From assembly GCA_958295895.1 (NCBI GenBank), contig CATQHI010000020.1, positions 1-64,000 of the forward strand: a stretch of DNA of 64,000 bases, read 5' to 3'. Positions 6,505 through 10,362 of the stretch are shown one piece after another (positions within the stretch are counted from its first letter, which is position 1; every line of letters begins with the position of its first letter). Both the position numbers and the translations under genes were made by a program. The DNA is from Saprospiraceae bacterium. GTDB lineage: Bacteria; Bacteroidota; Bacteroidia; Chitinophagales; Saprospiraceae. The notes under the pieces were generated by a model. The model was not told the DNA's origin, did no database searches, and was given only the letters and a program-made list of their open reading frames with translations.

Positions 6505-7326
6505 TCACTCATTCAGCCGCCCCCCACAGTACTTACAGAACACCGCGTCCGCCGAATGGCCCTCCCGGGAGCAGTAGCGGCAGGACTGGGTGGAGAGCTG
6601 ATGGCTTTTGTCCTTCCCCGCGACCATCTCACTGGTCACGATACCGGTAGGCACGGCGATAATGGCGTAACCGAGTATCATCACGACGGCGGAAAGAAAT
6701 TGCCCGATTTTGGTCTGCGGCGTAATATCTCCGTAGCCTACCGTAGTAATGGTAACGATGGCCCAGTACACCGCCCGCGGGATGGAGGAGAAGCCGTCGT
6801 TACTCCCCCCCTCGATCAGGTACATCACCGAGCCAATAATGATCACCAAAATGGTGACGGCAAAGAGAAATACCAGAATTTTGTTTCGGCTGGAGATGAT
6901 GGCCCGCCCCAGCTGATCGCCCTCGCTAAGGTACTGCCCGAGCTTAAAGATGCGAAAGATGCGCATCAGCCGTAGGATGCGGATGATCAGAAAATACTGG
7001 CTATTGGGCACCAGCAGACTGAGGTAGGAAGGCAAAATCGCCAGGATATCAACGATACCGTAAAAACTAAGCGCGTAGCTCCAGGGCCGGATCGTGACCC
7101 ACAGCCGCAAAACATACTCAACAGTAAAAATGATAGTGAGCAACCACTCGATGTAGTAAAAGGCCGTTCCGTAGGTCTGGTTCCAGTCCTCCGACGACTC
7201 CAGCATCACCACCAGGATCGAGAAGCAGATCAGCAGCAATAAACTGACGTCAAAGGCCTTTCCCTCCGGCGTATCTGCCTCGAAGATGATCTCGTGTACC
7301 CGGTCGCGGATCGATCGTTGCGCCAT
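6505..7326 (-). CDS. Voltage-gated potassium-type ion channel with C-terminal zinc ribbon
   Basis: A protein of about 273 residues with the layout of a six-helix voltage-gated cation channel. Four N-terminal hydrophobic segments include an S4-like helix with spaced arginines (RILRLMRIFRIFK). A pore region follows with the K+ selectivity filter TVGYGD (about 195-200) and a last inner helix. The C-terminus carries two CxxC pairs (CRYC and CKYC), a zinc-ribbon-like tail outside the usual channel fold. The start is the ATG at 7326. An ATG three codons upstream lies inside the promoter element and is less likely. The stop is 2 bp from the convergent SGNH gene. The zinc-ribbon role is unknown. Confidence 0.9.
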   Translation of the reverse strand: MAQRSIRDRVHEIIFEADTPEGKAFDVSLLLLICFSILVVMLESSEDWNQTYGTAFYYIEWLLTIIFTVEYVLRLWVTIRPWSYALSFYGIVDILAILPSYLSLLVPNSQYFLIIRILRLMRIFRIFKLGQYLSEGDQLGRAIISSRNKILVFLFAVTILVIIIGSVMYLIEGGSNDGFSSIPRAVYWAIVTITTVGYGDITPQTKIGQFLSAVVMILGYAIIAVPTGIVTSEMVAGKDKSHQLSTQSCRYCSREGHSADAVFCKYCGGRLNE

Positions 7327-7362: not shown

Positions 7363-9297
7363 CTACCGCTGCTGGTAGAGCCGTGGTGGCACGTCACTGA
7401 CCGGTATGCGCACCTCTACCCGCGTACCCGCCGCTGCTCCTGAGGGATGGTACAAATCGGTGATGGTGACCCACTTACCCTGGGCATCGGACAACAGCTG
7501 GAGGCGACTTTCGGTGATTTCCGTGCCACGACTTTGGTGCTGGCGACTGGGATCGAGCGCCTGCATCTCGCGTACCCGCACCCGGCCGATACCATCATCC
7601 GTGACGGTGGCCAGGAGGTAGTCATCGTCGGCAGTAGCAAAGGTAACCGCGATGTGGCCCCGGGCCTGCCCCCGCAGACCGTGCTCGATGGCGTTCTCTA
7701 CGTAGGGCTGCAGGATCATAGTCGGCACACCTATGATGTCTTCCTCTAGTTCTGGGCTTAGGGTGATGTCGTAGGTTAACTGCCCCTCGAAGCGCAGGTG
7801 GCGGTTGATCTCCAGGTAGTCGGTCAGAAATTGTCGCTCCTCCTCCAGGCTGATGGCCTCGTAGTTGCTGTACTCCAGGCTACGGCGCATCAGCATGGCA
7901 AATTTAGCCAGGTATTTGCTGGCAGTGGCCGCTTCATTGTCCGAGATGAAGGATTGTATGCTATTTAGGGCATTGTAGAGAAAGTGAGGATTCATCTGCG
8001 CCCGTAGTGCCCGTAGCTGCAGCTGGCTGGCCCGCAGTTTAAGCTGCCGATTCTCCTGCTCCCGCTCCTCGGCGCGGAACTGGGCGGCGAACTGCTGCTG
8101 CCGCAGCAGGTCGATCTGAGTGTGGTAGCGCTGGTTGTAGTGGTCGTAGGTGCGGTGGTGAGTATAGGCGGCGCGGTAATCGTCGGTCTCCTCGTACGCC
8201 ACGCTGAGGTAGAGGTACGCATCGGCCGTAAGGCTCAGGAGCTGAGGATCGCTGGTGGCATCGTCGACGGGCACCGCTTCGAGAATGTGCTGGAGCTGGT
8301 CGATGGCCTCGGTCCACCGGCTGCCGTCCATTAGCAGAGTAGCCCGCATGGAACCTACGATGGCGAGTTGCACCTGATCCGGGGAGTGCTCGCTACGGTA
8401 AAGTTCTTCGGCACGGGCCAGGTAGCGGCCGGCGCGTTCGGGCTGCTCCAGATGGTGGTAGCAGTAGCCCATGTTGGCATAGGTGGCGGCCAGGGCTTGG
8501 GTAGATCCGTTGGCGTTACTATCCACCACGGCACGGAAATAGGTAAGTGCTTGCTCGTAGGCCCCACTGGCCAGAAGTTCCTTGCCGAGGTTCAGTTGGT
8601 GCCAGGGCAGGCGGGCCCGGAGTCCGATGGCCTCGCAGCGCACGATAGCCTTTTGAAAGGCAGCAATGGCCCCCCCCCGCTCGCCGCTTCCCTGGTAGAC
8701 GGCCCCGAGACCGGCCTGGGTGAGGGCGTAGAAGTAGTGATCCTTCGGGGTGAGGGTAAAGGTTTGGCCCTCTAGTAGGGTTTCGGCCTCCATAAATTTG
8801 CGGGTGGCCTTGGGGTAACCAAAGTAGAGAAGGTATAGGTAGCCGTGGCGGCTGGCAGCGCGGGCGTGGAGCTGATCGCTAGGATACGCCTCCAGTAACC
8901 GGTAACAGGTGTCGAGGTAGTCACTGGCCGCCTCGGTTTGGCCTAGATTGGCGAGGTGACCGATGTAGTCCAGATAAATTTCGAGTTTATCGGCAATGTC
9001 GCCCCGGCTCTCGGCAATGGCAATGGCGGTCGCGAAGGGAGCTACTGCGGCTTCATGGCGGTATTCCTGACTCTCCAGACTGGCTAGGTAACGGGCGTGG
9101 TCGAACGTATAATCATACCCCGTACGATCTTCGAGACTGCTTACAGTGGCCCCCAGGGTAGTTAGGTGCTCGTGTAGTTCGTTAAGTAGTAGGCGGGCAC
9201 GAACGGGATCGGTATAGACACAGTCATGCAGGAGATCACGGATGATCTCGACACGGGTGAGGGCCGCCGTCGTCGCTTGCGGGGAGGCGGGCACCAT
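7363..9297 (-). CDS. Soluble TPR-containing LytS-type sensor histidine kinase
   Basis: A 644-residue protein with no signal peptide and no convincing transmembrane segment. Residues of about 30-390 form tandem TPR-like helical repeats (for example AVYQGSGERGGAIAAFQKAI and ANMGYCYHHLEQPERAGRYL). A short charged coiled coil (EEREQENRQLKLRAS) leads into a His_kinase domain with the H-box MNPHFLYNALNSIQ (His about 438). The C-terminal HATPase has the N-box (QPYVENAIEHGL) and G-box (DDGIG). The TPR kinases of this family known to me usually place a membrane helix between TPRs and kinase; here it is missing. The gene starts 9 bp after a small GG-leader peptide gene and lies downstream of a LytTR regulator, its probable partner. 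What the TPRs bind is unknown. Confidence 0.9.
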   Translation of the reverse strand: MVPASPQATTAALTRVEIIRDLLHDCVYTDPVRARLLLNELHEHLTTLGATVSSLEDRTGYDYTFDHARYLASLESQEYRHEAAVAPFATAIAIAESRGDIADKLEIYLDYIGHLANLGQTEAASDYLDTCYRLLEAYPSDQLHARAASRHGYLYLLYFGYPKATRKFMEAETLLEGQTFTLTPKDHYFYALTQAGLGAVYQGSGERGGAIAAFQKAIVRCEAIGLRARLPWHQLNLGKELLASGAYEQALTYFRAVVDSNANGSTQALAATYANMGYCYHHLEQPERAGRYLARAEELYRSEHSPDQVQLAIVGSMRATLLMDGSRWTEAIDQLQHILEAVPVDDATSDPQLLSLTADAYLYLSVAYEETDDYRAAYTHHRTYDHYNQRYHTQIDLLRQQQFAAQFRAEEREQENRQLKLRASQLQLRALRAQMNPHFLYNALNSIQSFISDNEAATASKYLAKFAMLMRRSLEYSNYEAISLEEERQFLTDYLEINRHLRFEGQLTYDITLSPELEEDIIGVPTMILQPYVENAIEHGLRGQARGHIAVTFATADDDYLLATVTDDGIGRVRVREMQALDPSRQHQSRGTEITESRLQLLSDAQGKWVTITDLYHPSGAAAGTRVEVRIPVSDVPPRLYQQR

Positions 9298-9306
9298 AGG
9301 GGAGGC

Positions 9307-9456
9307 TTACTGGGGCATGATGCCACCGCAGACCCGCCGGAACCAGTAGCCGCGGCGCTTGCCACCGGTGACCTGATCCATGGTGTCGCGGTCCAGCGGT
9401 TTGATCGTCTGGTCCTGTTTCAGCTCTTCGATTGTTTTTTTCCCGTTCTTAGCCAT
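9307..9456 (-). CDS. Small peptide with double-glycine leader, candidate signal or RiPP precursor
   Basis: A 49-codon gene read directly from the sequence. The N-terminal 32 residues form a charged helical leader ending LDRDTMDQVTGG, which resembles the GG-type leaders cleaved by C39 peptidases of bacteriocin and pheromone exporters. The remaining core would be KRRGYWFRRVCGGIMPQ: 17 residues, strongly basic and aromatic, with one cysteine and a second GG. The gene lies between a LytTR response regulator (106 bp upstream) and a TPR histidine kinase (9 bp downstream), an arrangement like peptide-pheromone operons. No exporter or modifying enzyme is in the window. It could instead be an unrelated small basic protein. 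The reading frame is certain; expression and processing are inferred. Confidence 0.6.
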   Translation of the reverse strand: MAKNGKKTIEELKQDQTIKPLDRDTMDQVTGGKRRGYWFRRVCGGIMPQ

Positions 9457-9535
9457 GAGTGGCGTAATGTAGTAGTTGGTGTTCAGTAAGTGGTGGGGGT
9501 ACGTTAACCGTCGGAACCGGTTACTACCCTAGCTT

Positions 9536-9543
9536 TAAAGGTA
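9536..9543 (-). promoter_or_regulatory. Possible -7 element for the peptide/kinase genes
   Basis: On the minus strand TACCTTTA differs from TAnnTTTG at one base and lies about 80 bp before the peptide ATG, within the 106-bp gap after the regulator gene. This would allow separate transcription of peptide and kinase. The same gap holds sequences loosely like LytTR half-sites (for example TACGTTAAC at 9500-9508), too weak to call. Confidence 0.3.
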
Positions 9544-9562
9544 GGTACTATCTAGGTAACGG

Positions 9563-10327
9563 TTAATTTAGCTCCTGTAGCGCCCGTAAACGTGTTAAAA
9601 AGGCGGGCCTGCGACGCCGACTTACGTCGATGCGCTTGCCATCCTCCATGATGAGGTACCCCCCTTCACCCTTTATAAAGCGTTTCATGTAGTTCATGTT
9701 GATGACGTGGCCCTTGTGCACGCGGTAAAAATTGCAGTGCGCCAGCAGGTCCTCGTAGTGCTTGATGGTGCGCGAGGCGGTGATGCGCTGTCCGTCCCGT
9801 AGGTGGATGTGGGTATAGTTATCGTCGGCCTCGAAGCGCACGATGTTGCTGATCTCCTCGAAGCGCATACCGTCGACGGCTCCGATGGGCAGTTTCTTAA
9901 AGGTGTTGGGATTACCCTGGTACTGCCGCATGGCGGCGATGCGCTCGTCGGTCCGGGCCTGCTGCCGGGGCTTGACGCGGCCCACGGCCTCCACGAGGCG
10001 ATCGGGATCGATGGGTTTAAGGATGTAGCCGATGCCCGAGTAATCAAAGGCCTTCATCGCGAACTGGTCGTAGGCCGTCACGAAGATGACGTCGAAGTCG
10101 ATGGGCCGTATCTCATCCAGCAGCCGAAAAACCTTCCCGTCACTCAGGTTGATGTCCATGAAGGCTACGTCAACGTGAAGGTCCGGCTGGGCAAACAAGG
10201 CCACGCCGGTGGCTACCCCGTCGGCTTCCCCCACTACCTCTAGGTCGGGGCAGTGGAGCTGGAGCATATTTTTGAGGTTGACGAGGCCTTTGCGTTCGTC
10301 TTCGATGATTACGGCGTTCAGGAGCAT
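9563..10327 (-). CDS. LytTR-family response regulator
   Basis: A 254-residue protein starting at the ATG at 10327 (MLLNAVIIEDERKG). The receiver domain (about 1-125) has the acidic pair after the first strand, the phosphorylatable Asp58 (FMDIN), the conserved Thr region (FVTAYDQ) and Lys (YILKPID). A C-terminal LytTR DNA-binding domain (about 150-254) contains the typical RFEADDNYTHIHL, FYRVHKGHVINM and RRRRPAFLTRL segments. It most likely accepts phosphate from the TPR kinase encoded two genes downstream and controls transcription. A perfect TAnnTTTG element stands about 28 bp upstream. Target genes cannot be told from the window. Confidence 0.93.
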   Translation of the reverse strand: MLLNAVIIEDERKGLVNLKNMLQLHCPDLEVVGEADGVATGVALFAQPDLHVDVAFMDINLSDGKVFRLLDEIRPIDFDVIFVTAYDQFAMKAFDYSGIGYILKPIDPDRLVEAVGRVKPRQQARTDERIAAMRQYQGNPNTFKKLPIGAVDGMRFEEISNIVRFEADDNYTHIHLRDGQRITASRTIKHYEDLLAHCNFYRVHKGHVINMNYMKRFIKGEGGYLIMEDGKRIDVSRRRRPAFLTRLRALQELN

Positions 10328-10354
10328 AGCGTGGATCGGTAAGGGGTACGTCAC

Positions 10355-10362
10355 CAAAACTA
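10355..10362 (-). promoter_or_regulatory. -7 promoter element for the LytTR regulator
   Basis: TAGTTTTG on the minus strand matches TAnnTTTG exactly, 27 nt before the ATG at 10327. No clear -33 TTG accompanies it. It lies between the lptC stop and the regulator, so the regulator need not be read from the lptC operon. Confidence 0.5.

Follow-up and report, generated by a model that had tools for sequence, protein, structure and literature searches.

A double-glycine peptide gene between a LytTR regulator and a soluble TPR histidine kinase: a candidate peptide signalling module in Saprospiraceae

On the minus strand of a 64,000-nucleotide stretch from a marine Saprospiraceae bacterium (GenBank assembly GCA_958295895.1, contig CATQHI010000020.1, positions 1 to 64,000; hereafter the window, C20:1-64000 of genome G000), a LytTR response regulator gene, a 49-codon peptide gene and the gene of a histidine kinase with tetratricopeptide repeats (TPR) stand in a row. 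We think it fairly probable that they form a peptide signalling module, in which a peptide with a double-glycine (GG) leader is exported, the TPR kinase recognises it in the cytoplasm and the LytTR regulator provides the output. A sequence-only reading of the window had proposed this row, and all three open reading frames (ORFs) were found where it had placed them, including the 9 bases between the stop codon of the peptide gene and the start of the kinase gene. Judged by the kinase, the nearest named relatives are Neolewinella and Lewinella of the class Saprospiria. The features of the locus are as follows (lengths in amino acids, aa; TM, transmembrane):

9563..10327, minus strand: LytTR-type response regulator, 254 aa (Pfam Response_reg and LytTR; orthologs scoring 225 bits or more in 49 of 298 genomes of the order)
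9457..9562, minus strand: stretch between the regulator and peptide genes, probably holding the promoter of the latter (TAnnTTTG box statistics across 40 loci)
9307..9456, minus strand: precursor of the candidate GG-leader signal peptide, 49 aa (ORF; conserved family A1/A3; purifying selection)
9361..9456, minus strand: leader, residues 1-32, with GG at its end and L/M/V at -12/-7/-4 (sequence; all 32 rows of A3 have the GG, partly by choice of rows)
9331..9360, minus strand: variable basic linker KRRGYWFRRV, residues 33-42 (mean pairwise identity over 54 peptides)
9310..9330, minus strand: conserved C-terminal heptapeptide CGGIMPQ, residues 43-49, the proposed active signal (residue counts over 54 peptides)
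7363..9297, minus strand: soluble TPR histidine kinase, 644 aa (Pfam; AlphaFold2 model; no TM segment in 49 kinase sequences)

The three genes travel together across genomes. In our sample of 298 genomes of the order, with the TPR part of the kinase searched at E up to 1e-12, the peptide profile matched in 47, the kinase TPR part in 52 and the regulator ortholog in 49, the 225-bit line for the last being drawn after viewing the gap between the lowest accepted score (227.5, G300) and the best score of a rejected genome (214.2, G049). The peptide profile matches 46 of the 52 kinase-bearing genomes versus 1 of the 246 others. That single kinase-less match (G087, E 0.006) is weak, lies inside a 453-aa frame and was set aside; at the genome level it is the only trace of a peptide without kinase and regulator, the pattern that the sequence-only reading had named as telling against its proposal. 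All 49 genomes with the regulator ortholog also have the kinase and a GG-peptide candidate, which supports the proposed tie between the three. The profile supplied 45 of these candidates and reading near the regulator or kinase the other four: in G034 we judged the profile match (L095) not to be the real peptide and replaced it by a GG peptide 339 bp behind the regulator, and G220, G242 and G248, which the profile does not match, carry a divergent GG peptide with the regulator on one side and the kinase on the other. Linkage is looser: the three genes are direct neighbours in 34 of these genomes (in G008 a contig end cuts the kinase) and unlinked to some degree in 15, with only regulator and peptide linked in six (G212, G222, G255, G287, G307 and G034), only peptide and kinase in one (G145), and full dispersal in eight (G233, G240, G276, G283, G289, G293, G300 and G305). 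The regulator adjoins the peptide in 40 of the 49, and the co-occurrence of the three genes holds even in the 15 genomes where they are unlinked. When 395 genomes of the phylum were scanned with profile A3, it matched in G000 and G017 and, weakly, in two genomes of other families (G496, E 2e-5; G610, E 6e-4).

The co-occurrence extends to an ATP-binding cassette (ABC) exporter with a C39 peptidase domain. The sequence-only reading had seen no exporter in the window and had named a C39 exporter gene elsewhere in the genome as support; both points agree with what we found, since the window's own genome has four C39-peptidase ABC proteins or domains, all on other contigs. Across 80 genomes of the family, a C39 domain is present in 49 of 49 with the full set versus 5 of 31 without it (Fisher p 2e-16 on the assumption of independent genomes, which these are not), most of the 27 kinase-negative genomes in this test having been picked from the listed part of earlier results, and 14 of the 49 have exactly one such domain. 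The best-matching exporter (G000 C3:182780-184972) combines C39, ABC membrane and ATPase domains, and a HlyD-family gene follows it. Of 19 further exporter loci from set-bearing genomes, 15 have a match to that HlyD gene; none was found in this position in L242 (where the contig ends), L243, L244 and L245. In G000, G009, G004 and G001 the exporter is flanked by an mnmA-like gene (tRNA_Me_trans) and by a gene with Pfam AAA and Lon_C-type domains that we take to be radA-like, while its surroundings differ elsewhere; in G300 it lies ~5 kb from the peptide gene. Exporter matches reach at least 637 bits in 45 of the 49 genomes (573 in G216, 583 in G242, 585 in G248 and 510 in G220; the G193 match has one internal stop). 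Because bit scores overlap with those of second copies (up to 667 bits) and of copies in genomes without the set (up to 611 bits), exporter orthology is uneven, and the count of 49 of 49 refers to the C39 domain and not to one ortholog group. In L235 our GG filter also picked out an ORF of 29 aa close to the exporter, which was rejected because its leader is unconvincing. Among the four C39 exporter genes in the window's genome, one (L118, G000 C25:1-20000) shares a short contig with IS66 transposase pieces and is followed by a 148-aa ORF that Pfam does not match; this exporter gene may be a recent mobile arrival.

The peptide gene itself is under strong purifying selection. A small ORF of the same kind sits between regulator and kinase in relatives of the kinase, and among nine peptide genes of equal length (that of the window and eight same-genus relatives) dN is 0.022-0.277 over the 36 pairs, with dS at least 0.749 over the same pairs and saturated or undefined in 16 of them. 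Residues 40-42 and 45-49 are constant in all nine although most of their codons vary. The low dN against saturated dS and the profile matches in kinase-bearing genomes bear out the expectation that the small frame would be conserved in relatives. The gene probably has its own promoter, because the TAnnTTTG box, a Bacteroidota-type consensus, exceeds shuffled controls upstream of the peptide starts: it occurs at -150 to -30 in 20 of 40 loci, whereas 200 dinucleotide shuffles averaged 4.0 and never went above 11. The window's own upstream region holds only a near match, TACCTTTA. Peptide starts were set at the last Met fitting the GG spacing, and the N termini of longer precursors are uncertain.

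The anatomy of the peptide was read from 54 sequences, 50 extracted and 4 typed in. Genomes are not represented equally: two contribute two sequences each, some lie outside the 298, and G003, G004, G006, G016 and G017 are absent; L089 and L095 were dropped beforehand. Double-glycine leaders carry hydrophobic residues at -12, -7 and -4 before the GG. The window peptide fits this pattern with L, M, V, G and G at -12, -7, -4, -2 and -1, and its leader is thus of the GG type that had been assigned to it; in the set, M stands at -7 in 43 of 54 and V or I at -4 in 46. The sequence-only reading had further expected a conserved leader with a freely variable core, and here we found the reverse. Conservation is highest in the last seven residues (mean pairwise identity 0.63, versus 0.31 for the 15 residues before the GG and 0.23 for the linker, which is 9 to 21 residues long). 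These mostly read CGGI[MVLI]PQ, with P in all 54, G as second residue in 48 and as third in 46, I in 41, Q in 41 and C in 37. As the linker varies while the C-terminal heptapeptide is conserved, these sequences point to one common recognition element. In Phr and PapR propeptides the signal is formed by the last few residues, and the present peptide resembles them in its conserved C-terminal end. Two genomes hold a second peptide gene that adjoins neither regulator nor kinase (L083, G222 C9; L092, G167 C25), with a different linker and a similar C-terminal end (CGGIIPQ and CGGIMPS, respectively).

If the product were instead a bacteriocin or a ribosomally synthesised and post-translationally modified peptide (RiPP), that is, a secreted antimicrobial or modified compound whose production is under the control of the kinase and regulator, a GG leader and a cationic core would be in place, and weak NCBIfam matches do occur among the 22 members of A1: to TIGR04149 (three, best E 0.00098), bactofencin_A (three, 0.0086), bacteriocin_sig (three, 0.019) and ComC (one, 0.03). 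However, the window peptide has no Pfam match (E up to 1) and no NCBIfam match (E up to 10), 44 of the 47 genomes with a profile match have a single copy, and the C-terminal end is conserved between genera rather than diversified. Genera differ in their flanking genes, and Pfam showed neither a modifying enzyme nor an exporter among the nine neighbour families that recur most often (an ion channel, DoxX, a FAD-dependent protein, a penicillin-binding protein, DAHP synthase, LptC, MerR and two without a match). The model description of TIGR04149 is of a RiPP modified by a radical SAM (rSAM) enzyme, and such precursors are found in Bacteroidota; the present peptide shares their GG leader and differs in its core and in having no modifying enzyme among the recurrent neighbours checked, and the matches of 3 of 22 A1 members and none for the window peptide do not place it in that family. 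We regard a bacteriocin or RiPP as improbable.

The candidate receptor is a histidine kinase with Pfam TPR repeats and PF06580, HATPase_c falling just under its curated cut-off. In 49 kinase sequences, drawn from loci of both samples and not identical with the 49 set-bearing genomes, no TM segment was found (no 19-mer above 1.6 on the Kyte-Doolittle scale, the highest being 1.58), and from this absence the kinase is predicted to be cytosolic. An AlphaFold2 model built from 43 sequences (mean pLDDT, the per-residue confidence score, 88.4; pTM, the predicted template-modelling score, 0.71) places a TPR solenoid at residues 6-370 and a long helix or coiled coil at 374-452, followed by the catalytic part; NPHF around H438 and N535, D567, G569 and G571 are invariant in the 43 sequences. 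A helices line the inner face of TPR proteins. With these helices assigned by hand from helix order, 14 of the 138 A-helix positions hold a polar or aromatic residue whose conservation is at least 0.8 (N76, Q77, N117, R150, D186, N236, N275 and R318 among them), versus 2 of the 131 B-helix positions. The best matches among solved folds are mostly LGN complexes, followed by a pheromone-bound phage Rap, peptide-bound RapF, NprR and a CSF-bound Rap protein. These predicted features are consistent with peptide binding by the kinase.

Conservation, selection, linkage, four-way co-occurrence, the lack of TM segments in the kinase and its conserved polar TPR face are established directly, and we infer export, ligand binding, re-entry, phosphotransfer and target genes. 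In the proposed mechanism, the unlinked C39-peptidase ABC exporter, with its HlyD partner, would cut the 49-aa precursor after the GG and export the remainder, of which the C-terminal heptapeptide CGGI[MVLI]PQ would carry the information and the basic linker would act as a spacer. Recognition would take place in the cytoplasm, since the kinase is predicted to be there, within the groove of its TPR solenoid, and the ligand would be either the re-entered peptide or a C-terminal fragment of it, or else the unexported precursor. Binding would alter autophosphorylation of the kinase, the phosphate would pass to the neighbouring LytTR regulator, and the regulator may feed back on the peptide gene. 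LytTR sites typically show a 21-bp spacing, and CGGT/CGGY boxes in 21-bp steps stand before the peptide start, behind the promoter box, in L106, L107, L108, L109 and L081 of the 40 upstream regions and also in G003. The 21-bp self-match count over the 40 regions is 22, with a mean of 7.6 and a largest value of 25 in 200 mono-nucleotide shuffles. The window's own upstream region has no CGGT/CGGY boxes. We rejected LytTR binding sites upstream of the peptide as a candidate feature, the three-box pattern (seven genomes) being not clearly above its reversed control and the stepped boxes showing no clear genome-wide enrichment.

The second choice of ligand amounts to a different biology. If the kinase reads the free C terminus of the unexported precursor, the system would gauge the balance between synthesis and export and not the presence of neighbours. 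The kinase without TM segments suits this, the conserved heptapeptide is already the free C terminus of the precursor, and no importer tracks the set: the oligopeptide permease family PF00496 occurs in 80 of 80 genomes and is hence not specific, and PF03169 occurs in 22 of 49 with the set and 11 of 31 without it, so that importer linkage was rejected. Little speaks against it, and the retained GG leader and exporter fit both versions, because export would then be what turns the signal off. We nevertheless consider precursor sensing rather unlikely and have a modest preference for return of the peptide, and thus signalling between cells: a conserved end next to a drifting linker is what one would expect of a signal that undergoes further processing. 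Export could also serve another purpose altogether, such as biofilm formation or surface behaviour, with the kinase-regulator pair controlling that trait without sensing the peptide, and in Synechococcus small proteins with a GG motif are reported to take part in biofilm development (PMC4997328). The short product, its strict C-terminal motif and its one-to-one relation with a TPR kinase are a better fit to a ligand, however, and we hold this explanation to be very unlikely.

Several observations weigh against the signalling module. The genomes compared are related, so that their counts cannot be read as independent events. Three genomes that bear the kinase (G060, G151 and G298) have neither a regulator ortholog nor a peptide match, and C39 domains occur in five genomes without the full set (G060, G298, G214, G263 and G267). 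G013, of the same genus and with an estimated completeness of 100%, has no match to peptide, kinase, regulator or C39; this joint absence speaks for the module, but it is the sole loss inside the genus that can be pointed to. The invariance of GG in A3 is partly a matter of selection, as GG also served in choosing the rows. The heptapeptide is imperfectly kept, with genus g62 ending in G[GS]TIP[QL] or GGNTPS, G220, G242 and G248 in PC.G..P[QH], G034 in FRDIMPS and G002 in YNGIMPQ. The TPR similarity is generic, APC/C, OGT and designed TPR proteins appearing in the same fold list, which also holds TPR proteins that bind no small peptide. Finally, re-entry is unsupported because no importer tracks the set. 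The kinase relatives of G060, G151 and G298 (L214, L216 and L215, respectively) show 31-35% identity and may use a different partner.

In the ComC/ComD/ComE and Blp systems of streptococci, a GG-leader precursor, a C39 ABC exporter, a polytopic membrane kinase and a LytTR regulator work together, with their genes adjacent. The parallel with ComC/ComD/ComE drawn by the sequence-only reading is borne out for the GG leader, the C39 exporter in the genome, the LytTR regulator and the side-by-side genes, and the histidine kinase is common to both. It breaks down at the sensor, as all 49 kinase sequences lack TM segments and the kinase is a soluble protein with a TPR solenoid in place of a membrane domain; the core is a variable linker with a conserved C terminus, the exporter is unlinked and the host belongs to the Bacteroidota. 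In its sensing part the kinase is nearer to RRNPP receptors than to ComD. RRNPP systems (Rap-Phr, NprR, PlcR and Rgg-SHP) have a cytosolic TPR receptor beside a small propeptide gene whose C terminus gives the signal; an oligopeptide permease takes the peptide back up, and it binds directly in the receptor's TPR groove. The present locus likewise combines a TPR receptor candidate, predicted to be cytosolic, with an adjacent small propeptide gene and a conserved C terminus that would act as signal, and Rap and NprR are among the fold neighbours of the kinase; it differs in that the receptor is itself a histidine kinase acting via a LytTR regulator, and in the GG-type leader. In passages of PMC10075063, RRNPP_detector defines receptors as 250-500 aa long and is applied to Firmicutes and viruses, a size range that the present kinase exceeds with 644 aa and a PF06580 part. 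The TPR region matches the NCBIfam model of FimS weakly (E 1.4e-05; 23.6 bits versus a cut-off of 600). FimS of Porphyromonas is a Bacteroidota histidine kinase that also has a TPR part, but it is located in the membrane, whereas the kinase described here has no TM segment and has a peptide gene as its partner.

Downstream of the kinase, also on the minus strand, lies an Ion_trans ion channel gene (6505-7323). Members of this channel family are present in 23 of the 55 loci read, on either side and either strand, and one also adjoins a regulator-kinase pair without a peptide (L114). The channel may be connected with the signalling set.

The comparison points to a system of the kind best known from Gram-positive bacteria. 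To our knowledge, no peptide pheromone system has been described for Bacteroidota, and none of this kind was found among the matches listed in the open PMC literature, a scope outside which most subscription papers lie. More boldly, and only tentatively, we suggest quorum sensing in Bacteroidota, in which the C39-secreted GG peptide returns and binds the TPR groove of the soluble kinase, CGGIxPQ serves as pheromone across genera, and RRNPP-like sensing is fused to a two-component output. The proposed system brings together a seven-residue candidate signal, a candidate receptor, a regulator and an exporter, and, if true, it would mean that cytosolic TPR peptide receptors exist outside the Firmicutes and can be wired directly to a histidine kinase.

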